A DNA stretch of 27,384 nucleotides, taken from a virus. Positions 5,050-27,384 of this stretch are shown here, piece by piece. The first letter of the stretch is position 1; every line of letters begins with the position of its first letter. The position numbers and the translations under genes were made by a program. The stretch is from positions 1-27,384 of IMG/VR virus record IMGVR_UViG_3300019850_000046. One strand, written 5' to 3'. The notes below the pieces were generated by a model. That model was given only the letters and a program-made list of their open reading frames with translations. It searched no databases and was not told where the DNA came from.

Positions 5050-5868
5050 TTAGTATCTCCATGATAATTCAATAGTTATTATCGGATCTTTTATTGAACT
5101 TGAAGGTGAATCAAAATAACATTGTAAGATATCACCTTCATTTACATCTATATTTATATTTGTGTCCCCATTACCATAATCATTAATAACATCCAACGAT
5201 GTTATTATTGTGTTTGTATTATTCTTTCTTATATAAAATGTTCCTGTTCCTAAATTATGGAATTGACCACTTAAAGATACAATACAAGCATTTCTTATAA
5301 CTCTTAAACTGTTTTTATTACTTGGTATTACACCGCCAAAATAACGAAGGTACTGATTATTTGTTAATCCTTTTTTACCAAAAGATAAAGTTTGTTTATC
5401 AGTTGATAACCATTTATTTCTATTATTATCCTTTATATATAATATATTATCAATAGTATTATACCATTGTTGTCCAAAATTAGCTGAAACAGGTGGTGTA
5501 TTAGATATAGTATACAACTTTTGTAAATCTGTTATATCATAATATAATTGGTTTATATCATCAACTTCAACAAGAGATCCTTTTGCGTAGTAATCTATAT
5601 CTACATTCGTTCCAGCATCATTATTATTAAATGCAATATAACCAGTATTAAAATTAACATAATACTGGCCTGATGGTGGTGGATATGTTGATGTTTCTGT
5701 AAAATTCTGAATTGATAATCTTGAAGATATAGTACCGTCATCAGGAACTTCTATAAGTTCTACAATATTATTTGCAGAAGATGGAATAGTTCTTGTTTCT
5801 TGATAATGTATTTGTTGCCATTGATTATCAATAGATTTCCTTATATTATGTAGAGGAAAATATTTCAT
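5050..5868 (-). CDS. Fibre-like virion protein, paralogue of the downstream fibre C-terminus
   Basis: This 272-residue protein has an N-terminal half with YYVNFNTGYIAFNNNDAGT and VDIDYYAKGSLVEVDDINQL, a strand pattern I associate with phage fibre attachment domains. From about residue 140 to the end (LYIKDNNRNKWLSTDKQTLSFGKK ... IITIELSWRY) it aligns throughout with the C-terminal domain of the 469-residue fibre encoded just downstream, including NQYL, ACIVS(L/M)(S/T)GQ, a basic strand and the final E(L/I)(S/A)WR(Y/A). It lacks the N-terminal module shared by the other fibres, so it may be a connector or a shorter fibre. Its ATG abuts the preceding stop codon. Confidence 0.8.
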   Translation of the reverse strand: MKYFPLHNIRKSIDNQWQQIHYQETRTIPSSANNIVELIEVPDDGTISSRLSIQNFTETSTYPPPSGQYYVNFNTGYIAFNNNDAGTNVDIDYYAKGSLVEVDDINQLYYDITDLQKLYTISNTPPVSANFGQQWYNTIDNILYIKDNNRNKWLSTDKQTLSFGKKGLTNNQYLRYFGGVIPSNKNSLRVIRNACIVSLSGQFHNLGTGTFYIRKNNTNTIITSLDVINDYGNGDTNINIDVNEGDILQCYFDSPSSSIKDPIITIELSWRY

Positions 5869-6480: not shown

Positions 6481-6961
6481 ATCTCATTAAATTGTCTGTT
6501 TTTCTATTACCATTATAAAAATCCATATGTTTTGATATTCTTCTTTCTTTTTTTAATTTCAATTGTTTATCAAATTTATATATTTTTATAAGATCCTTTA
6601 TTCGTTTATATACTATTGCAATCCATTTATTACAATCTAATGTTTCTTTTTTAATAATACCATCAACACCTTGTGATATTAATTTCATAGATAATATTGG
6701 ATTATTATCAACGACACATAATATTTTTATATTTTTAAATATTTCTTTTATTTTACTGGTATATTTACTATTTACATCATTACACATTATTAATATATCA
6801 ATATGTTTCATTTGTAATAAAGTATTTATGTTATCAACTAATAATATTGATGATATATTATATTTTTCTTTTAAATTTAATAACAAGTCTTTATGTTCTT
6901 TTGTAAATACACAAACTATATAATCATCAAATACATCATTTTTTGATATTTCACTCATCAT
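6467..6961 (-). CDS. Receiver-like (CheY-fold) protein lacking the phospho-acceptor Asp
   Basis: Residues about 12-118 of this 164-residue protein show the alternating strand-helix rhythm of response-regulator receivers. A third strand IDILIMC occupies the place of the usual 'DLVLLD', a fourth strand is ILCVVDNN, and a following ISQGVDGIIKK resembles the receiver 'AGADGYLLK' with its conserved Lys (104/105). The position where the phosphorylated Asp normally sits is Cys60, and the first-strand acidic pair is absent, so phosphorylation in the usual way seems unlikely. The tail (about 125-164) is very basic. The start codon overlaps the stop of the actin-like gene in an ATGA arrangement. The fold call is inference from pattern only; it could be another Rossmann-like protein. 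Confidence 0.6.
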   Translation of the reverse strand: MMSEISKNDVFDDYIVCVFTKEHKDLLLNLKEKYNISSILLVDNINTLLQMKHIDILIMCNDVNSKYTSKIKEIFKNIKILCVVDNNPILSMKLISQGVDGIIKKETLDCNKWIAIVYKRIKDLIKIYKFDKQLKLKKERRISKHMDFYNGNRKTDNLMRYVHA

Positions 6962-8067
6962 TTCACCTTTAAAGTATCAGCATATAACAAGCATCCTTTA
7001 GAAACTGATGTTAATTTATTTTTAGCTGATATAACATCAGTATATTCAAAAGGTATTTTTACATTGTTTAATTCTTTAGTAAATATATCAACAAATCCAT
7101 CAGGCAATGATGTACCACCTGATATTACAATTGGTATTGGTTCTATTATATTTATATCATTAGATTTGTTAAAAGTATTAATTGTTTGATTAATGGTGTT
7201 TTTAATAACATGAGTATGTGTAAATATAAGTGCTCTTTCTTCTGCAGATACTTTATTCATATCAGCTAATAAATTAAGTTGATTTTCTTTTATATGATTT
7301 ATCATACTTTCAGAAGTTCCTGTTGCTCTTGCACTTTCTTTATCAATAAAATCTCCTGATTTATTTATACTAAAACTAAATAATAACATTCCTTTATAAA
7401 CAAATGCTACATTTACGAGACCAGCACCAAATGAAAAACCAAGACCAGTTGTTTCCTTAGCTTTTTCAAGTTCTGATATAATAACAGCATATGCTTCATT
7501 TAAAGATGTTGGTTTATATCCAAGATTTTCTATAAGAGCTGATATACTCATAGAATGGTATTCTACATTAAATGTTTCATTATCATTTATTGTTTCTGCA
7601 GGAATACTATAAACAACATTAGATCCTTTTTCAGGATTACCTGTTTCAATACTATATCTTAATATTTCTTTTAAGATTAATGCTGATTTTTTTTCTTTTG
7701 GATTAATAACACCTTTTGATAATGGTCTTAGTGATGATGAATTTTGTATTTTTGCCATTGTTAAAGCATCTTCTCCAATTATAAATACTTCGTCGTCTTG
7801 TTTAACATATTTCATAGTATTTAAATTAAACATATTACCATTAAACATGATATCAGGTACTTTATAAAAACAACTTCTCAAAGGAACATAATCTATTTTA
7901 TTTATAGTCTTATGATATGCACCACATACCCATCCAGTACCAACATCCAAACCAATATTTTTTGTTTTCTCTTTTTTTACATTTTTTGTCATATTTCTTA
8001 TTCCTTCTTTTAATACAGGTTCTTTATTTAAAAAAATAATATCATCAACATCATCAACAGTATTCAT
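6958..8067 (-). CDS. Actin-like ATPase (actin/MreB/Hsp70 superfamily)
   Basis: This 369-residue protein belongs to the actin/Hsp70 nucleotide-binding fold. The phosphate-1 loop is IGLDVGTGWV (Asp41, Gly43, Gly45). The connecting helix has LNEAYAVIIS, the counterpart of the EP-AAA motif of MreB and Hsp70. The adenosine motif is VISGGTSLPDGF (315-325). The phosphate-2 loop (FSFGAGLVNVAF, 211-222) is degenerate: the usual Asp is Ser212 and the Thr pair is Leu-Val. Such proteins polymerise to segregate DNA or organise the cell; here a role in positioning phage DNA or assembly is inferred. Codon 26 (ATG at 7992) is an alternative start with a better ribosome binding site (GAAGGA), which would trim the N-terminus to 344 residues. 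ATGA overlaps link it to genes on both sides. Confidence 0.8.
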   Translation of the reverse strand: MNTVDDVDDIIFLNKEPVLKEGIRNMTKNVKKEKTKNIGLDVGTGWVCGAYHKTINKIDYVPLRSCFYKVPDIMFNGNMFNLNTMKYVKQDDEVFIIGEDALTMAKIQNSSSLRPLSKGVINPKEKKSALILKEILRYSIETGNPEKGSNVVYSIPAETINDNETFNVEYHSMSISALIENLGYKPTSLNEAYAVIISELEKAKETTGLGFSFGAGLVNVAFVYKGMLLFSFSINKSGDFIDKESARATGTSESMINHIKENQLNLLADMNKVSAEERALIFTHTHVIKNTINQTINTFNKSNDINIIEPIPIVISGGTSLPDGFVDIFTKELNNVKIPFEYTDVISAKNKLTSVSKGCLLYADTLKVK

Positions 8068-13727: not shown

Positions 13728-14837
13728 ATGTATAAAATAAAAGGATATATCTTTTCTGATTCTATTGAAGATGGAGCACTTAATCAGTTTTATTCAGCAA
13801 TGGAACAGGATTATGTTGTTAAGGGTGCATTGATGCCTGATGCCCATAAAGGGTATGGTCTTCCTATTGGTGGTGTTGTTGCTACTAAAGGTGTTATAGT
13901 TCCATCATGGGTTGGATATGATATTGGATGTGGTATGTGTGCCATTAAAACATCTTTTAATATTGATGATATCAAGAAAAATGTAAATTCAATATATAAT
14001 GATATTATTGATACTATTCCTGTTGGTTTTAATAAAAGAAATATACCTGTATGTAAAGATGTTATTGAAGATGTTGAAAGAAAATTATCTGATGATCTTT
14101 GTAATATTTTACAGGAAAAAAATGCACTACATGCTTTAGGTACTTTAGGTGGTGGTAATCATTTTTTAGAAATAGGATATGGACGTGATAATTCTATTTG
14201 GATTATTATTCATTCAGGATCTCGTGGCCCAGGCCATGGTTGTGCAACTCATTATATGAAACTTGCCGGTGGTGGTAAAGCAAGAGAAGGTCATTATCCA
14301 TTGAATGTTGATTCAATTGAAGGTAAGAACTATATAAAAGATCTTGATTTTATGTTAGGTTATGCTTTACTTAATAGAATGTATATGATCAAAGATGTTG
14401 TTAAGATTTTGAAAAAATATTCTAATGGTGGTGTTCATTGGGGTGATATTATTAACAGAAATCATAATCATGCAGAATGTAAAGATGGAATATGGATACA
14501 CCGTAAAGGTGCTACTCATGCAGATGCTGGTATGTTTGGTGTTATTCCAGGCAATATGCGTGATGGTAGTTTTATTGTAAAAGGTAAAGGATCTGAATTA
14601 TCTTTATGTTCTTCTTCTCATGGTGCAGGAAGGGTATTAAGTCGTAATATAGCAAAGAAAACTTTAAATGTAGATGATTTTACTGATACAATGAAAGGTA
14701 TCAAATGTAATGCTTCTAAAAATACTTTAGATGAATCACCTTTTGCATATAAAGATATTTTTGAAGTAATGAATGATCAGAAAGATCTTGTAGAAGTTAT
14801 TGATTACATTAAACCTATTATAAATGTAAAAGGTTAA
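13728..14837 (+). CDS. rtcB: RtcB-type RNA ligase
   Basis: This 369-residue protein is a complete RtcB, which joins RNA 2',3'-cyclic phosphate or 3'-phosphate ends to 5'-OH ends using GTP and Mn2+. Visible motifs are GYDIGCGM (metal ligands Asp65 and Cys68), GGGNHFLE (Asn144, His145), IHSGSRG (His162), NRNHNHAE, a GVHWGD segment, and CSSSHGAGR with His298, the expected guanylylated His. The 17-residue spacing between His145 and His162 equals that in E. coli RtcB. At 369 residues it is somewhat shorter than the usual 400 or so. In phages such ligases may repair tRNAs cut by host anticodon nucleases. The ribosome binding site is weak. Confidence 0.92.
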   Translation: MYKIKGYIFSDSIEDGALNQFYSAMEQDYVVKGALMPDAHKGYGLPIGGVVATKGVIVPSWVGYDIGCGMCAIKTSFNIDDIKKNVNSIYNDIIDTIPVGFNKRNIPVCKDVIEDVERKLSDDLCNILQEKNALHALGTLGGGNHFLEIGYGRDNSIWIIIHSGSRGPGHGCATHYMKLAGGGKAREGHYPLNVDSIEGKNYIKDLDFMLGYALLNRMYMIKDVVKILKKYSNGGVHWGDIINRNHNHAECKDGIWIHRKGATHADAGMFGVIPGNMRDGSFIVKGKGSELSLCSSSHGAGRVLSRNIAKKTLNVDDFTDTMKGIKCNASKNTLDESPFAYKDIFEVMNDQKDLVEVIDYIKPIINVKG

Positions 14838-14922: not shown

Positions 14923-16809
14923 ATGAAATATTACAGAAACATATATTATGATACCTATAAATCAAAAATATATTTATGGGATTATAAAGGTAGAATGATA
15001 CAAGAGCCATGGGTTCCTTATCTTTTTATGAAAACTGATAAAGATACAGGATTACATGATATTTATGGTAATTCTGTTAATAAAATACCTTTTGATTCTT
15101 ATAAAGAATATAAATTGTTTCAAAAAAATAATTATGATGTTCAAGAGAATAATGTAATTCCTTCTATCCAATATCTTACAAAAAAATATAGTGATAACGA
15201 TAATACAGAATTACCAAATTTGCATATATGTTTTTTAGATATTGAATGCCCACATGATGATGGATTTCCAAATGTTAAAGATGTTCCTGCTGAAATTGTA
15301 TTGATATCTATTATAGATGAAACAGGTAAAATAACAGTATTTGGTAAAAATGATTATAATAGTGATAAATATCCAAATGTTGAATATATATATTGTAAAA
15401 ATGAACATGATTTATTGAATTCATTTTTTAATTGGTTCAATAAAGAACGGTTTGATGTTATTTCAGGATGGAATATTAACAGAAATAATAAAACAAATAT
15501 GTATGGTGGGTTTGATACACCATATATTATAAGAAGATCTATAAAGATATTTGGTGAAAATGGATCTAATCATAAATTATTATCACCTATCAATAAAATT
15601 ACTATAAGAGAATCAAATATAAAAAATGGAGTATATGATGTTGATATTGCAGGATTATCAATTATAGATTATCTTGCTTTATATAAATGGTTTAGTTTTA
15701 ATAATCTTGAATCATTTACACTTGGTTATGTATCAAGTATAGAATTAAATGATACAAAAAATGATTATTCGGAATATGATTCCATGTATGATTTTTATAA
15801 ACAAGATTGGAATGGATTTGTTGATTATTGTATAAAGGATTCTGATTTAGTATATAGATTAGAAAAAAAACTTGGTTATATTGATCTTGCGCAAATGCTA
15901 ACATGTTATTGTGGATGTCAAATGATGAGTTATAATTCATCAGTGCCATTGATTGAAGGATTAATGTTGAAATATTATAGGAATAATGATTTATGTGCTC
16001 CTAAAATGGAAGGTGGAAAACAAATTTGGTTTCCTGCAGCATATGTTAAAAATCCAAAAGTAGGTTTATATAAAGATGTAGTTGATCTTGATATTGCTTC
16101 AAGTTATCCTACACATATTATTATTTTGAATATGTCAATTGAAACATATTATGGTAGAATCATAGGTTATAATAAAAAAGATGTTAATGATTATTATAAG
16201 AATAATGGTATTCATGAACCTCTGCATAAAGGAAGACCAATATATGATATAAATATTAAACATACAAGACAAAGAAAATACCCATCTTTTGCTTTATTAA
16301 ATAAAGATGATAAAGTAATATGGTATAATGATAAAAAACTTGACTTATTTAATAAAGCATTGGAAAGAGGTTTGTTTTGTATCGCTCCAAATGGTGTTAT
16401 ATTTACAACAAATAAAAAAGGAACTATTTCTTATGTTGAACAACGCACCTTTGAAGAAAGAGTAAAACAGAAAGGATTAAAAACAAAATATAAAAATAAA
16501 GCAAAGGAAGATCATGAAAATGCAAAACATTGGAAAGAATTAGCACAAAATAAACATGTTCTCCAGTGGGCGATCAAGATCTTAATTAATTCGATGTTTG
16601 GCGTGCTGGGTGTTCCTTATTGTAGATATTTTAATCCACATATCGCTGAGGCAATAACCAGTTGTGGGCGACATACAATATTGAATTGTGAAAAATTTGT
16701 AAATGATTTAGTAAATTCACCTGATGAAGGTTTAATAAATATCTTTAAAGAAATAGAAGAAGAAATAGAAAAATGCCAAAAAGAAAAACAACTAAACAAT
16801 TTATTATAG
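14923..16809 (+). CDS. 43A: Family B DNA polymerase, N-terminal part (exonuclease, motifs A and B)
   Basis: This 628-residue protein holds the first two thirds of a T4 gp43-like polymerase. The exonuclease motifs are FLDIECP (Asp106, Glu108), SGWNINR...GGFDTPYIIRR, and YCIKDSDLVYRL. The polymerase motif A is LDIASSYPT (Asp390), and motif B is KILINSMFGVLG (Lys552, Asn556), with Phe where T4 has Tyr. Homology ends near KEIEEEIEK; the last residues are read from DNA that overlaps the start of the HNH gene. Motif C and the thumb are missing here and occur 1.9 kb downstream at 18704. The two products together total 922 residues, close to the 898 of T4 gp43. They probably assemble into one enzyme. 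No clear ribosome binding site is seen. Confidence 0.92.
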   Translation: MKYYRNIYYDTYKSKIYLWDYKGRMIQEPWVPYLFMKTDKDTGLHDIYGNSVNKIPFDSYKEYKLFQKNNYDVQENNVIPSIQYLTKKYSDNDNTELPNLHICFLDIECPHDDGFPNVKDVPAEIVLISIIDETGKITVFGKNDYNSDKYPNVEYIYCKNEHDLLNSFFNWFNKERFDVISGWNINRNNKTNMYGGFDTPYIIRRSIKIFGENGSNHKLLSPINKITIRESNIKNGVYDVDIAGLSIIDYLALYKWFSFNNLESFTLGYVSSIELNDTKNDYSEYDSMYDFYKQDWNGFVDYCIKDSDLVYRLEKKLGYIDLAQMLTCYCGCQMMSYNSSVPLIEGLMLKYYRNNDLCAPKMEGGKQIWFPAAYVKNPKVGLYKDVVDLDIASSYPTHIIILNMSIETYYGRIIGYNKKDVNDYYKNNGIHEPLHKGRPIYDINIKHTRQRKYPSFALLNKDDKVIWYNDKKLDLFNKALERGLFCIAPNGVIFTTNKKGTISYVEQRTFEERVKQKGLKTKYKNKAKEDHENAKHWKELAQNKHVLQWAIKILINSMFGVLGVPYCRYFNPHIAEAITSCGRHTILNCEKFVNDLVNSPDEGLINIFKEIEEEIEKCQKEKQLNNLL

Positions 16810-17918
16810 ATGCAAAAAAAATTCATGGTAATAAATATGACTATTCTTTAGTTCAATATAAAAACTGGTCTTCAAAAATTAAAATCATATGTCCTGAACA
16901 TGGTACATTTGAACAAAGGGCAGGAAATCATTTACAGGGATATGGTTGTTCTAAATGTGGTATTATAAAATTATCAATAAAAGGAAGAAAAAACAATCAA
17001 CAGTTTATAGAAGATGCCTATTGTAAGCATGGTGATAAATATAATTATAAACTTGTTGAGTATAAAAGATCATGTGATAAAATAAAAATTATATGCCCTG
17101 TACATGGTATATTTGAACAAGAAGCAAATGCTCATTTAAATGGACAAGGGTGTCCTAAATGTGGTATTATACTAAGAAAAAATAAACGGAGAAAAACAAC
17201 ACGACAGTTTATAGAAGATGCAAAAAAAGTACATGGTGATAAATATGATTATTCTTTAGTACAATATAAAAATAATAGCACCAAAGTTAAAATAATATGT
17301 CCTGTACATGGTGTCTTTGAACAAAAACCAAATGCTCATTTAAATGAAAATAATTGTCCTAAATGTTCTGGTAGATATGAAAAAAAATATGCAAAGGATA
17401 ATATACCTGTTTATGATACATATGCAAATCAGTTAGAACCTTATGGTATTGCTTGTAGAAGAAATAAAGAAGATGAAAATATATTAGAAGTTAAGTGTAT
17501 GTATTGTGATAGATGGTATATGCCTTCTATGATATCTGTATATGGTAAAATAAAATGCATAAAAGGAAATTCACAAGGAGAATCAAATCTTTACTGTTCT
17601 GATACATGCAAACAAGCATGTCCTACTTATGGACAAATTTTATATCCTAAAGGATTTAAGAATGATAAAACAAACACTTCAAGGGAAGTGCAACCCGCAT
17701 TAAGGAAACGTGTTTTAAAAAGGGATAACTATACATGTCAAAGATGTAGTGCAACTGATATAGAATTGCATTGCCACCATTATGAAGGTATAGAAATTAA
17801 TCCTATTGAATCAGCGGATGCAGATAATTGTATTACCTTATGCAAAAACTGTCATAATGATATACATAAAGCTGATAAATGTGGTATTAAACAGTATCAA
17901 AGAAAGGAATGCAAATAG
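16773..17918 (+). CDS. HNH homing endonuclease with three zinc-ribbon-like repeats
   Basis: This 381-residue protein has three tandem repeats of about 55 residues starting QFI at residues 9, 77 and 145, an exact 68-residue period. Each carries HG(D/N)KY(D/N)Y, IKIICPxHGxFEQ and CPKCG, as in DUF723-type DNA-binding repeats of homing endonucleases. Residues about 205-300 hold more Cys pairs (CMYC, CSDTC). The C-terminus is an HNH nuclease: RDNYTCQRC (Cys322, Cys325), LHCHHYEG (His335/336) and LCKNCHNDIH (Cys357, Cys360, His361, His365), with zinc and catalytic residues present. It interrupts the polymerase between motifs B and C, and its start overlaps the upstream part by 37 bases. A near-identical C-terminus lies at the right edge of the window. 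Confidence 0.9.
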   Translation: MPKRKTTKQFIIDAKKIHGNKYDYSLVQYKNWSSKIKIICPEHGTFEQRAGNHLQGYGCSKCGIIKLSIKGRKNNQQFIEDAYCKHGDKYNYKLVEYKRSCDKIKIICPVHGIFEQEANAHLNGQGCPKCGIILRKNKRRKTTRQFIEDAKKVHGDKYDYSLVQYKNNSTKVKIICPVHGVFEQKPNAHLNENNCPKCSGRYEKKYAKDNIPVYDTYANQLEPYGIACRRNKEDENILEVKCMYCDRWYMPSMISVYGKIKCIKGNSQGESNLYCSDTCKQACPTYGQILYPKGFKNDKTNTSREVQPALRKRVLKRDNYTCQRCSATDIELHCHHYEGIEINPIESADADNCITLCKNCHNDIHKADKCGIKQYQRKECK

Positions 17919-17934
17919 AATAAGGAAAGTTAAA

Positions 17935-18153
17935 ATGAATACTACAGTTTATGATAATTCATTATTTTTAATTTCTGATAATGAAAAAGTTGTATTTAAA
18001 GGATATATATGGGAAAAATGGTTTGCTTATTATCCTGTAATAGTGGAACCAAAATATTCATATGTTTGGTTAATATTTGTAATGAGAAGAAAAAATGAAA
18101 AATACAGTATATATGATACAAGAAAATATATTTATAGTATAATACCAAAATAA
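17935..18153 (+). CDS. Small hypothetical protein in the polymerase insertion
   Basis: This 72-residue protein starts at ATG 17935 after a ribosome binding site AAGGAAAG; upstream in-frame codons overlap the HNH gene and are not needed. The product is a beta-strand-rich, aromatic protein (FKGYIWEKWFAYYPVIVEPK, then SYVWLIFVMRRK) with no recognised motif. Similar short beta-rich proteins of unknown function are common in phage accessory regions. Confidence 0.6.
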   Translation: MNTTVYDNSLFLISDNEKVVFKGYIWEKWFAYYPVIVEPKYSYVWLIFVMRRKNEKYSIYDTRKYIYSIIPK

Positions 18154-18162
18154 GGTAAAATT

Positions 18163-18333
18163 ATGAAAATGAAAAATATAAAAGTTATTGATTTTATTAC
18201 ATATAGATCAAAACCATTAATAAATATGCAAGATGATATGGTAAAAGTTGAGTTAAGTTTTAGTAAAAATGAAAATATGAAATTATATAGACAGTTAAAG
18301 GTGATTTATGAAAATACAAAAAGAGAAGTATAA
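18163..18333 (+). CDS. Small hypothetical protein (56 residues)
   Basis: The frame begins MKMKNIKVIDFITYRSKPLI and ends NTKREV, encoding 56 residues with a short ribosome binding site (AAGGT) eight bases upstream. The N-terminal 'VIDFITYRSK' is a short strand-turn, and the rest is a helix with many Lys and Asn. It overlaps the next gene by 26 bases. No family recognised. Confidence 0.5.
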   Translation: MKMKNIKVIDFITYRSKPLINMQDDMVKVELSFSKNENMKLYRQLKVIYENTKREV

Positions 18334-18505
18334 ATATCCAATTAACAATTGTAGTAATTGTAGTGATGGGGCAACTATACTTGAAAAATTTTGTGATGTA
18401 TATTATGTAATATGTAAAAATTGTAAAAACAGTACAGTAGATTGTGATACATTTGAAAAAGCAATAAAAGAATGGAATATAAAAAATGAAAGAAATAACA
18501 GTTAA
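18308..18505 (+). CDS. Lar-like restriction alleviation protein (candidate)
   Basis: This 65-residue protein has the plan of the Lar family: an N-terminal C-x2-C (NNCSNCSDG), an aromatic strand (DVYYVICKNC) with a second C-x2-C, and a C-terminal helix with AIKEWN, corresponding to the family's 'A---WN'. Lar proteins reduce restriction of phage DNA by host type I systems, though many phage members are untested. The gene overlaps both neighbours and rides within the insertion that splits the polymerase, so it would spread with that insertion. Such four-Cys ribbons are also found in unrelated small zinc proteins, so the call is tentative. Confidence 0.6.
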   Translation: MKIQKEKYKYPINNCSNCSDGATILEKFCDVYYVICKNCKNSTVDCDTFEKAIKEWNIKNERNNS

Positions 18506-18707
18506 TCAATATGATGATTTACCTTCTCTTTATGATGAAAATGGTAATTATGTATATGATTTAAATAAATTAAATATTGGTGATTATTATTTATTAAATA
18601 AAAATACAGAATATAAAGATAAAAACGATAAGGTTTCTGTATATGAGATTATAAATAAAAATAATTTATCAATTGAATCCAAAATAACTATATTAAAATT
18701 AAAATGA
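18486..18707 (+). CDS. Small acidic hypothetical protein before the polymerase C-part
   Basis: This 73-residue protein (MKEITVNQYDDLPSLYDENG ...) is acidic with alternating strand-like segments. Its start overlaps the Lar-like gene by 20 bases. Its stop TGA overlaps the ATG of the polymerase C-terminal part in an ATGA arrangement, so its translation may supply ribosomes for that gene, which has no Shine-Dalgarno sequence of its own. No family recognised. Confidence 0.6.
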   Translation: MKEITVNQYDDLPSLYDENGNYVYDLNKLNIGDYYLLNKNTEYKDKNDKVSVYEIINKNNLSIESKITILKLK

Positions 18708-19588
18708 ACAAAAGTGTCAAAACAGATAATATTATATATATTGATACTGATTCTGTATTTTTTAGTATTTCTAATATTTTAGAAAATAATGGTATAGGTA
18801 ATGATAAATGGTTTTCTATTGATAAAGAAATAAGAATAAAATACATTATCAAAATATCAAAATATATAGAAACTGTTGTAAATAATAGAAGTTATCATGA
18901 AACACAATTACTTGATTATAATTCCTGTGTTCATCAAGATGATTTTAGTATAAAATTAAAACAGGAAATAATTTGTGCTAATGCTTTATTCTTAAAATCT
19001 AAAATGTATGCGTTTTGGGTTATCAATGAAGAAGGTTATGATACTGATAAAATTGATGCAAAAGGTATTGAAATTGTTAGATCATCATCACCTACAGTAT
19101 TTAGAGTTGCTCTTAAAGAAATTCTTAATTTGTTATTAAAAGATAAATCAGATGATGAAATGTCTAATATTGTTAAAAAATATAAGAAAGAGTTTTATAC
19201 TGCATCGCCAGAAGATATATCAGTTAATATAGGTGTCAATGGAATTAATAAATATATTATAAATGATGAATTTAAAAAAGGAACACCATATCATATCAAA
19301 GGTGTTGCTAACTATCATAAATTATTAAAAGAATTTGGTATTGATAAAAAGTATAATTTTATTCATGAGGGTGATAAATGTAAAGTAGCATATATTAAAC
19401 CTAATAAATATAACATTGATGTTATTACATTTTATAAATATCCAAAAGAATTTCTTGACAATGGTATTTATATTGATTATGATATCATGATTGAAAAGTA
19501 TTTTATCAAAAAGGCAAATATTATTTTAGAACCAATAACTAAATCATATATTCTTGAAGATACTAATATTATGGATACATTTTTTTAA
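18704..19588 (+). CDS. 43B: Family B DNA polymerase, C-terminal part (motif C, palm and thumb)
   Basis: This 294-residue protein begins just before motif C: IIYIDTDSVFF with catalytic Asp14 and Asp16. The following features match T4 gp43 after motif C: a YAFWVINEEGYDTDKIDAKG strand, EIVRSSSPTVFRVALKE helix, then PYHIKGVANYHKLLK, and a final ILEDTNIMDTFF. The last hydrophobic residues (TFF) resemble the C-terminal clamp-binding tail of T4 polymerase. Alone it cannot work, since motifs A and B are on the separate N-part product. The start shares the ATGA overlap with the small gene upstream, and no independent ribosome binding site is visible. Confidence 0.9.
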   Translation: MNKSVKTDNIIYIDTDSVFFSISNILENNGIGNDKWFSIDKEIRIKYIIKISKYIETVVNNRSYHETQLLDYNSCVHQDDFSIKLKQEIICANALFLKSKMYAFWVINEEGYDTDKIDAKGIEIVRSSSPTVFRVALKEILNLLLKDKSDDEMSNIVKKYKKEFYTASPEDISVNIGVNGINKYIINDEFKKGTPYHIKGVANYHKLLKEFGIDKKYNFIHEGDKCKVAYIKPNKYNIDVITFYKYPKEFLDNGIYIDYDIMIEKYFIKKANIILEPITKSYILEDTNIMDTFF

Positions 19589-20235: not shown

Positions 20236-21102
20236 ATGAATTATTATTGTGTATATCATAATTCCGATTATGATGGTGAATGTTCTGCAGCTATTGTAAA
20301 TTACAATTATACAAAATTTGCATCTAATCAAGAAAAAATAAAATTCATTGGTATGAATCACAGTGATGAATTTCCTTTATGGGATAAAGTAGATAAAAAT
20401 GATACAGTTTGTATGGTAGATTTTTCTCTACCTATGAATGATATGATTTTATTGAATCAAATAACCAATTTAATTTGGATTGATCATCATAAATCAAGTA
20501 TTGATGAATATAATGATATTATAGATTTTAATATCATTGGTAATAGAGAAATTGGCAAGGGTGCTTGTGAATTAACATGGAAATTTCTATTACCTAATCT
20601 AAAACTTCCAAAAGCAGTAAAATTGTTATCAAATTTTGATGTTTGGAAACATACAGAAGATGTTATTCCTTTTCAATATGGTTTATCTTTATATGATACT
20701 TCTGTAGAAAATAAAAAAGTATGGTTTAAATTATTTGATCATAATAATACTGTATTTGTTTTTGATATTATTGCAACAGGTAAATTGTTATATAAAAATA
20801 AACAAATGATAGATAAAAAATATATGAAATTATATTCTTTTAATACCACATTTGAAGGTTATAATGTTATAGCTGTTAATAGAAGATGTAATTCTTTAGC
20901 ATTTATAAGTGTTTTTAATAAAAATAAGCATCAAATAATGATACCATTCTTTTATAACCCTGATAATAAAAAATGGATTCATTCTATATATACACCTTTT
21001 GATAATATTGATGTAAGTGAAATAGCAAAAAAGTATAGTGGTGGTGGTCATAAACAAGCCGCAGGTTTTGAGATAGATAAACCAATCTTAACCACAAAGT
21101 AG
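20236..21102 (+). CDS. DHH superfamily phosphoesterase
   Basis: This 288-residue protein has the DHH fold motifs: HNSDYDGECSA (His8, Asp11, Asp13), VDFSLP (Asp62), WIDHHKS (Asp83, His84, His85), and, at the C-terminus, a DHHA1-type SGGGHKQAAGF (269-277). These supply the usual two-metal site. Size and layout fit single-domain oligonucleotide or cyclic nucleotide phosphodiesterases rather than full-length RecJ. In a phage, degrading short RNA or DNA fragments, or host signalling nucleotides, are possibilities; I cannot choose. The ribosome binding site is AGGAG, and a hairpin follows the stop. Confidence 0.85.
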   Translation: MNYYCVYHNSDYDGECSAAIVNYNYTKFASNQEKIKFIGMNHSDEFPLWDKVDKNDTVCMVDFSLPMNDMILLNQITNLIWIDHHKSSIDEYNDIIDFNIIGNREIGKGACELTWKFLLPNLKLPKAVKLLSNFDVWKHTEDVIPFQYGLSLYDTSVENKKVWFKLFDHNNTVFVFDIIATGKLLYKNKQMIDKKYMKLYSFNTTFEGYNVIAVNRRCNSLAFISVFNKNKHQIMIPFFYNPDNKKWIHSIYTPFDNIDVSEIAKKYSGGGHKQAAGFEIDKPILTTK

Positions 21103-22304: not shown

Positions 22305-22946
22305 ATGTTTAAAGTAAATAAGAAAGATAAATATGTTTTATTATTTTCAGGTGGTTATGATTCAACCACAATTTTAATAAATGTTCTTAAATCAGGAAAT
22401 AGAAATATATCTTGTGTGTATATAGATATTCCTAATAATAAAGATAAATCAAAGATTGAAATAAAACGATGTAAAAAGATATTAAAATGTCTTAATAAAG
22501 AATATGACATTAAGATACCTTTTAATATTTATAAAAGTGCAATTGTTCCTACTAAAAACACTTGTTCTTATACATTACCATATTTATATATAACAACTTT
22601 AATACCAGTTCTTGAATATGATACTGATTATGTATTATTTGGTTTTATAAGAACTGATGATATTTGGCATTGTTATCAACAATTTGAAGATTCTTTTAAA
22701 AGTTTAAATTGTATTATAAGATGTACAAGATATAACAATTCAAATTATTCTAACTGTATAATATGGGCACCTCTTGAATATCATTTTAAAAAAGATATTA
22801 TTAAGTATATTAAAAAATATAAGAAAATCTATAAGTTATGTTGGACTTGTGAATCTCCTACCAAAAAAGGCAAACCGTGTGGTAAATGTTGTACTTGTAT
22901 AAAATATAAGAAGACATTAAAAGAATTAAAAATAAAGACAAAATAA
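22305..22946 (+). CDS. PP-loop ATPase, QueC-like
   Basis: This 213-residue protein has the PP-loop LLFSGGYDSTT (15-21) that binds ATP in the adenylating N-type ATP pyrophosphatases. Its C-terminus carries CWTCESPTKKGKPCGKCCTC, a Cys cluster in the position of the zinc site of QueC, which turns 7-carboxy-7-deazaguanine into 7-cyano-7-deazaguanine (preQ0). preQ0 feeds queuosine, or deazaguanine modification of phage DNA against restriction. Other genes of that pathway (FolE, QueD, QueE or a Dpd transglycosylase) are not visible here, so a different substrate is possible. It starts directly after the zinc-knuckle gene. Confidence 0.7.
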   Translation: MFKVNKKDKYVLLFSGGYDSTTILINVLKSGNRNISCVYIDIPNNKDKSKIEIKRCKKILKCLNKEYDIKIPFNIYKSAIVPTKNTCSYTLPYLYITTLIPVLEYDTDYVLFGFIRTDDIWHCYQQFEDSFKSLNCIIRCTRYNNSNYSNCIIWAPLEYHFKKDIIKYIKKYKKIYKLCWTCESPTKKGKPCGKCCTCIKYKKTLKELKIKTK

Positions 22947-27207: not shown

Positions 27208-27384
27208 TCACAAATTTTCCTTTATTATTTTACCTTCCTTGCCTTCTTTGCATTCTTTTCTTTGATATTGTTTAATGCCACATTTATCAGCTTTATGTAT
27301 TTCATTATGACAATCTTTACATAATGTAATACAATTGTCTGCATCAGCAGATTCAATAGGATTAACTTCTACACCTTCATAATG
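27208..27384 (-). CDS. HNH homing endonuclease, C-terminal end (partial)
   Basis: Read from the right edge, the frame encodes HYEGVEVNPIESADADNCIT and LCKDCHNEIHKADKCGIKQY, ending KEGKIIKENL and TGA at 27208-27210. Over 46 residues it matches the C-terminus of the HNH protein at 16773 at 42 positions, so it belongs to the same family and the copies diverged recently. The N-terminal repeats and most of the nuclease domain lie outside the window. Compared with the first copy it has an extra tail of 12 residues (EGKEGKIIKENL). Confidence 0.85.
   Translation of the reverse strand, partial: HYEGVEVNPIESADADNCITLCKDCHNEIHKADKCGIKQYQRKECKEGKEGKIIKENL

Follow-up and report, generated by a model that had tools for sequence, protein, structure and literature searches.

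The window (the whole stretch of 27,384 nucleotides analyzed here; IMG/VR record IMGVR_UViG_3300019850_000046) encodes a family B DNA polymerase (PolB) in two open reading frames (ORFs), 14923-16809 (628 amino acids) and 18704-19588 (294 amino acids), separated by a cassette composed of an HNH endonuclease gene and four small ORFs. Comparisons with relatives and structure predictions indicate that this is likely a working replicative polymerase in two chains, with the endonuclease cassette inserted at the junction of a gene that was already split. The virus is a tailed phage, because the rest of the 27-kb contig includes head closure, tail assembly chaperone, and endolysin genes.

Two complementary polymerase genes

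An original prediction, made from the window's sequence alone, had described two polymerase ORFs totaling 922 residues with no conserved motif lost, and both points were confirmed. The N product matched DNA_pol_B_exo1 (7e-16) and DNA_pol_B (3e-15), the C product matched DNA_pol_B (4e-8), and the two are complementary because they matched positions 14 to 563 and 563 to 840 of PHROG 262, respectively. In alignments with intact relatives and RB69 gp43, the acidic residues of the exonuclease, motifs A, B, and C, and the KxY region were all present, and no conserved motif was found to be missing from the window's halves (Table 1). AlphaFold2 single-chain models of the N and C chains both match RB69 gp43; with this fold and the exonuclease and motif A, B, and C residues, the products belong to the T4/RB69 gp43-type family B DNA polymerases. 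Alignment with unsplit relatives, which had been proposed as the way to define the junction, placed the break at approximately residues 608 to 613 of RB69 gp43 (mapped via the intact relative L005), i.e., in the loop between a palm helix ending near residue 607 and the strand leading into the catalytic YGDTDS.

In the arrangement that we propose, the N chain would contain the exonuclease, the fingers, and motifs A and B and end in a helical tail, and the C chain would begin just ahead of the motif C strand and bear motif C and the thumb. On assembly, the motif C strand would fill the missing place in the palm sheet. The motif A and motif C strands pair in a complete palm. AlphaFold2 confidence was low in the C chain at motif C (residues 1 to 15) and in the N chain near motif A (residues 364 to 402), which fits, without proving, a two-chain enzyme, because the palm would need both strands. 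The gp43 of Aeromonas phages 44RR and 25 is likewise split (43A/43B), and a two-chain enzyme is plausible because the two products co-purify and are active (PMC2988022). The ratio of nonsynonymous to synonymous changes (dN/dS) was 0.09 to 0.20 in both halves of split sister pairs where computable, similar to intact pairs; for L047/L104, synonymous sites were saturated, but amino acid changes were far fewer. Both halves are under purifying selection in these split sister pairs.

Table 1. Positions of the polymerase genes and cassette in the window and of candidate bypass elements in relatives
Feature	Position	Strand	Basis
N-terminal polymerase gene: N-terminal domain, 3'-5' exonuclease, motifs A and B	14923-16809	+	Profile matches, alignments, AlphaFold2 model vs RB69 gp43
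Exo I (D106, E108)	15238-15246	+	Invariant in alignments
Motif A DLDIASSYP	16084-16110	+	Alignment with intact relatives and RB69 gp43
Motif B KILINSMFG	16576-16602	+	Alignment with intact relatives and RB69 gp43
N-chain C-terminal tail (NSPDEGLINIFKEIEEEIEKCQ..), resembling the LLNNPxxELKxIL tail of split relatives	16717-16809	+	Helix 602-627 predicted (AlphaFold2)
HNH endonuclease with DUF723-type repeats and C-terminal HNH domain	16773-17918	+	Pfam, PHROG
Small ORF 1, 72 amino acids, no relatives found	17935-18153	+	
Small ORF 2, 56 amino acids, no relatives found	18163-18333	+	
Small ORF 3, 65 amino acids, Cys-rich, no relatives found	18308-18505	+	
Small ORF 4, 73 amino acids, stop overlapping C-gene start as ATGA	18486-18707	+	
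C-terminal polymerase gene: motif C and thumb	18704-19588	+	Profile matches, AlphaFold2 model vs RB69 gp43
Motif C YIDTDS, in frame with C-gene ATG, no gap in window	18737-18754	+	
Truncated second HNH gene copy at contig edge, last 46 amino acids, 91% identical	27247-27384	-	
Hairpin, codon x, TGA, 7-nt out-of-frame gap before DTDS	L044:7867-7956		
Hairpin, codon x, TGA, 11-nt out-of-frame gap before DTDS	L046:6854-6943		
Hairpin, codon x, TGA, 7-nt out-of-frame gap before DTDS	L070:8800-8889		
Hairpin, codon x, TGA, 10-nt out-of-frame gap before DTDS	L104:4935-5024		
Hairpin, codon x, TGA, 10-nt out-of-frame gap before DTDS	L155:3806-3895		
Hairpin, codon x, TGA, 8-nt out-of-frame gap before DTDS	L170:2485-2574		
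Hairpin, codon x, TGA, 8-nt out-of-frame gap before DTDS	L193:7089-7178		

Intact, bare-split, and occupied junctions among relatives

Relatives were collected from IMG/VR by querying with both halves and with alignments, and near copies were removed; an initial scan with the N protein alone found none. The resulting clade comprised 86 non-redundant loci including the window, of which 55 have one open frame across the junction and 31 are split there. Ten of the 31 split loci, among them L039, L085, and L088, contain no insert; in these ten, the N stop lies 16 to 29 nucleotides (nt) ahead of motif C, and the two genes often overlap as ATGA or TAATG. The other junctions hold diverse elements: the HNH gene of the window; GIY-YIG endonucleases (L047 and L052, and a remnant in L044); CapR-repeat proteins with a weak restriction-endonuclease-like C terminus (L035, L038, L046, L091, L096, L102, and L117, and a CapR-repeat remnant in L220); unrelated small ORFs (L048, L138, L170, and L193); and, in L056, a lipoprotein-like gene and a tRNA gene (Rfam; L056:4258-4349), the latter immediately before the C gene. 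Judging from its sequence, the GIY-YIG insertion in L047 is exactly at motif C. What is left of the earlier C-gene start, DYIAYI in a different frame, directly follows the N stop (L047:7740-7775), and the 3' end of the GIY-YIG gene provides a new start, MIKKTDYVLYA-DTDS (L047:8384-8420).

Inteins also occur in this polymerase family. In L117 (4488-5846), the C gene of a split polymerase carries an intein at DTD|S and is preceded by the CapR-repeat endonuclease gene, and in L069, L070, and L075 the exonuclease II motif (N gene, about 6560-7590) carries an intein at GWN|C. Two relatives from different metagenomes contain an in-frame TAG in the exonuclease region (L059:1488-1490 and L060:5797-5799), after which reading continues in the same frame. 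Two intact relatives (L233 and L234) lie on contigs binned as a Thermoplasmata archaeon metagenome-assembled genome, which points to mis-binning or else to a virus of archaea.

In a tree built from 85 polymerases with the junction columns left out, the intact and split states require 14 changes, at least 11 of which are forced by well-supported branches, and several close sisters differ in state (L004/L037, L116/L091, and L190/L059). A single origin of the split, with all split forms as one clade, was rejected (p-AU 2e-48). Recombination around the junction can mimic or inflate the number of such changes. According to the tree, the gene has repeatedly switched, in one direction or both, between one and two cistrons at the loop ahead of motif C, which makes this loop a permissive site. 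The linker at this position in intact forms is either short (16 to 19 residues) or long (30 to 47 residues), and gain or loss of a stop and start in the long loop would be an easy step, because long linkers often contain the same LLNNPxxEL tail that closes split N chains. With modest support (89) and on long branches, the window is grouped with three other split loci, namely, L035, L056, and L039, the last of which is a bare split.

The cassette and its relation to the split

The 1,894-bp insert contains, as had been predicted, an HNH gene and four small genes in the same direction, all on the + strand, with only approximately 25 bp outside ORFs. The first product (381 amino acids) has DUF723 repeats (Pfam, 5e-8) and an HNH domain and matches PHROG HNH endonucleases with E values down to 2e-37, the Pfam HNH match (19.1 bits) being under the cut-off of 21.4. 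The start of its gene overlaps the last 37 bp of the N gene, such that the final 12 codons of the N-chain tail fall within it. Small ORF 1 most plausibly starts at ATG 17935 rather than at TTG 17806. No phage match was found for small ORFs 1, 3, and 4, none of the four matched in Pfam or among the fetched loci, and their PHROG matches were only weak (E values of 0.006 to 0.07). The ATGA overlap of small ORF 4 with the C gene suggests translational coupling, on which C-gene expression would probably depend. That the contig contains another HNH copy points to mobility; this second copy adjoins a nucleoside 2-deoxyribosyltransferase-like gene, unlike the neighbors of the first copy. Probably only the HNH gene itself moves, because DNA similarity between the copies fades just beyond the HNH stop. 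Mobility of the whole cassette as a unit was not supported, the second copy being without ORF 1. The polymerase is flanked by genes for an RtcB-like RNA ligase (13728-14837), a DHH phosphoesterase (20236-21102), and a QueC-like protein (22305-22946).

The original prediction had the polymerase split by the cassette. As a cause this was not supported, since ten relatives, L039 next to the window in the tree among them, share the split position but have no cassette, and unrelated cassettes occupy the junction in others; the window's N tail also resembles those of the bare-split relatives. Because the HNH ATG (GAAATAGAAAAATGCC) sits where bare-split relatives start the C gene and small ORF 4 overlaps the C gene by ATGA, the insertion looks like one at an existing gene junction. 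The comparison suggests that the cassette probably did not create the split and that the DUF723-HNH homing endonuclease, with its four passenger ORFs, would have entered afterwards. That the HNH endonuclease was what broke an intact gene in the lineage of the window, with the passengers coming along or later, is unlikely, although homing endonuclease insertion is the accepted cause for Aeh1 nrdA and T4 gene 39/60 (PMC2988022). The window does consist of two cistrons with an endonuclease gene between them, the HNH start is placed exactly at the N-gene end, and independent splitting is possible given that the splits in the family do not form one clade.

Restoration of a single chain is less probable still. 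Group I introns are known in gene 43 of phages 25 and JSE (PMC2993671) and in large numbers in Jug phages (PMC12363816), and RNA splicing had been considered an alternative in the original prediction. An Rfam search gave no intron match in the window down to an E value of 5 and no intron model match in 13 relatives scanned, whereas the same tool detected the group I intron of Aeromonas phage 25 at 7e-15. On this result the intron was rejected; with almost no non-coding space in the insert, and with bare splits that cannot be introns, splicing of the insert is very improbable. Protein splicing by a split intein, as described for the PolB of Pseudomonas phage MIJ3, which has an HNH gene between its halves (PMC6892783), would be in keeping with the intein at DTD|S in L117, but we regard it as the least probable explanation for the window. 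Its N tail of approximately 30 amino acids is without intein block A, its C chain begins 13 residues ahead of motif C without an HN-S/C end, and a Pfam intein search of the window products gave no match. With the intein N and C blocks not found at the two ends, the split intein was rejected for the window.

The split polymerase could also be dead or decaying, with another polymerase replicating the genome. This is highly unlikely, given that in an AT-rich genome neither frame is interrupted, no motif is lost, and dN/dS is low in both halves of split sister pairs, although the record covers only a genome fragment. Several points weigh against a two-chain enzyme with a later cassette. The contig is a 27-kb fragment, and another polymerase elsewhere in the genome is possible; the two-copy HNH repeat could in principle favor misassembly; and the window is without a close relative (no more than 47% identity to any row of the tree) and is weakly placed. 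The sample of relatives is biased toward split forms, with some search profiles made from split sequences, and purifying selection was measured in sister pairs of split relatives. The sequences and predicted structures support the two-chain reading that the original prediction had offered.

Comparison with known split genes

The window shares with Aeromonas 43A/43B a T4-type PolB in two adjacent cistrons, and phage 25 has a homing endonuclease between them. The position had been singled out as deserving comparison, and it differs: the Aeromonas break lies between motifs A and B and that of the window between motifs B and C. A common site was rejected, since the 44RR break maps to L005 residues 505/519 and that of the window to about 569/565. 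The Aeromonas cistrons are separated by untranslated DNA or a seg gene rather than by an HNH gene with four ORFs, and phage 25, unlike the window, also carries a group I intron. In Aeh1 nrdA and T4 gene 39/60, where the inserted endonuclease genes are mobE and mobA, respectively, a phage enzyme gene is likewise in pieces whose products assemble; these cases concern other enzymes, and the junction in the window's family is also found bare or with several unrelated elements. MIJ3 resembles the window in having an HNH gene between two PolB pieces, but the window is without intein halves and thus without trans-splicing. Inteins of the pol-c type at DTD|S share motif C as a target with the L117 intein.

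Hairpins and out-of-frame gaps before motif C

In seven non-redundant split loci, the C gene opens with ATG...DYxxYx, and codon x is followed by TGA and 4 to 8 nt, after which DTDS lies in another frame (Table 1, where the gap lengths include the TGA); the window itself has no such gap. A stem of at least 11 bp, whose 3' arm encodes DYxxY, stands directly 5' of codon x. The stem covaries: 11 base pairs hold across all eight distinct sequences while being formed by many different pair types. A G-U to A-U change inside the stem separates L155 from L158. Folding z-scores range from -4.5 to -10 for the gap loci versus approximately 0 in 77 controls (23 other split and 54 intact loci). The codon x/landing codon (the codon before DTDS) pairs are ATA/ATA, ATT/ATT, ATT/GTT (twice), ATT/CTT, TCC/TTT, and TCT/TTT. 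The two codons are identical in L044 and L170 (also in L052), wobble-compatible in four more loci, with one mismatch in L104, a likeness with a permutation p of 0.0025 based on few cases (8 pairs). L052, beside its GIY-YIG gene, has a 2-nt out-of-frame gap before DTDS (ATATAGAT; 5350-5400) with ATA/ATA and without a hairpin, and no start codon occurs in the motif C frame upstream of this gap. A pattern scan of IMG/VR returned 13 contigs, 12 of which were already in the set; the thirteenth (L244) repeats the L170 sequence.

Bypass in T4 gene 60 is marked by a stop after the take-off codon, a 5' stem-loop, and a matched landing codon (reviewed in PMC5009743). The stem-loop and the stop are found in all seven gap loci, together with a matching or near-matching landing codon and, in some, a nearby endonuclease or remnant. 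The gaps differ from that of gene 60 in length (7 to 11 versus 50 nt), and the hairpins in directly abutting the take-off codon. These loci are candidates for gene-60-type ribosome bypass or frameshifting elements. A +1 or -1 shift at x_UGA, or a restart, is a possible alternative to bypass. UCC_UGA is the antizyme site. Restart at a TTG overlapping the TGA fits L046, L170, and L193 but not L044, L070, L104, and L155. Recoding of TGA as sense was rejected, because gaps of 7, 8, 10, and 11 nt are not multiples of three and a recoded stop cannot restore the frame. Because the gap lies in motif C, which is also the site of the L117 intein, protection from an endonuclease cutting motif C would be a natural guess.

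Taken together, the sequences allow a broader and more tentative proposal, namely, that the pre-motif-C loop may be a hub for repeated change between one and two chains and for the landing of inteins, three kinds of homing endonucleases, and other cargo, and that in some relatives, not the window, motif C may be reached only via programmed bypass or frameshifting over a 7- to 11-nt gap guided by the abutting hairpin.

Implications

Split T4-type polymerases and endonuclease-associated gene fission were already known. What is new is a break between motifs B and C, the repeated appearance of this break whether or not an element occupies it, and the gap loci. Fission of a replicative polymerase has taken place repeatedly at a single position next to the active site, perhaps along with fusion, and the family offers a natural series (one chain, bare split, and split with an element) in which the interplay of selfish DNA and enzyme architecture can be tested. 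Shorter-distance counterparts of the T4 gene 60 bypass have long been presumed, with few known (PMC5009743), and the gap loci provide seven short, cloneable candidates in an essential gene. If the proposal is true, these hairpin-guided gaps would form a new family of short elements resembling that of T4 gene 60.

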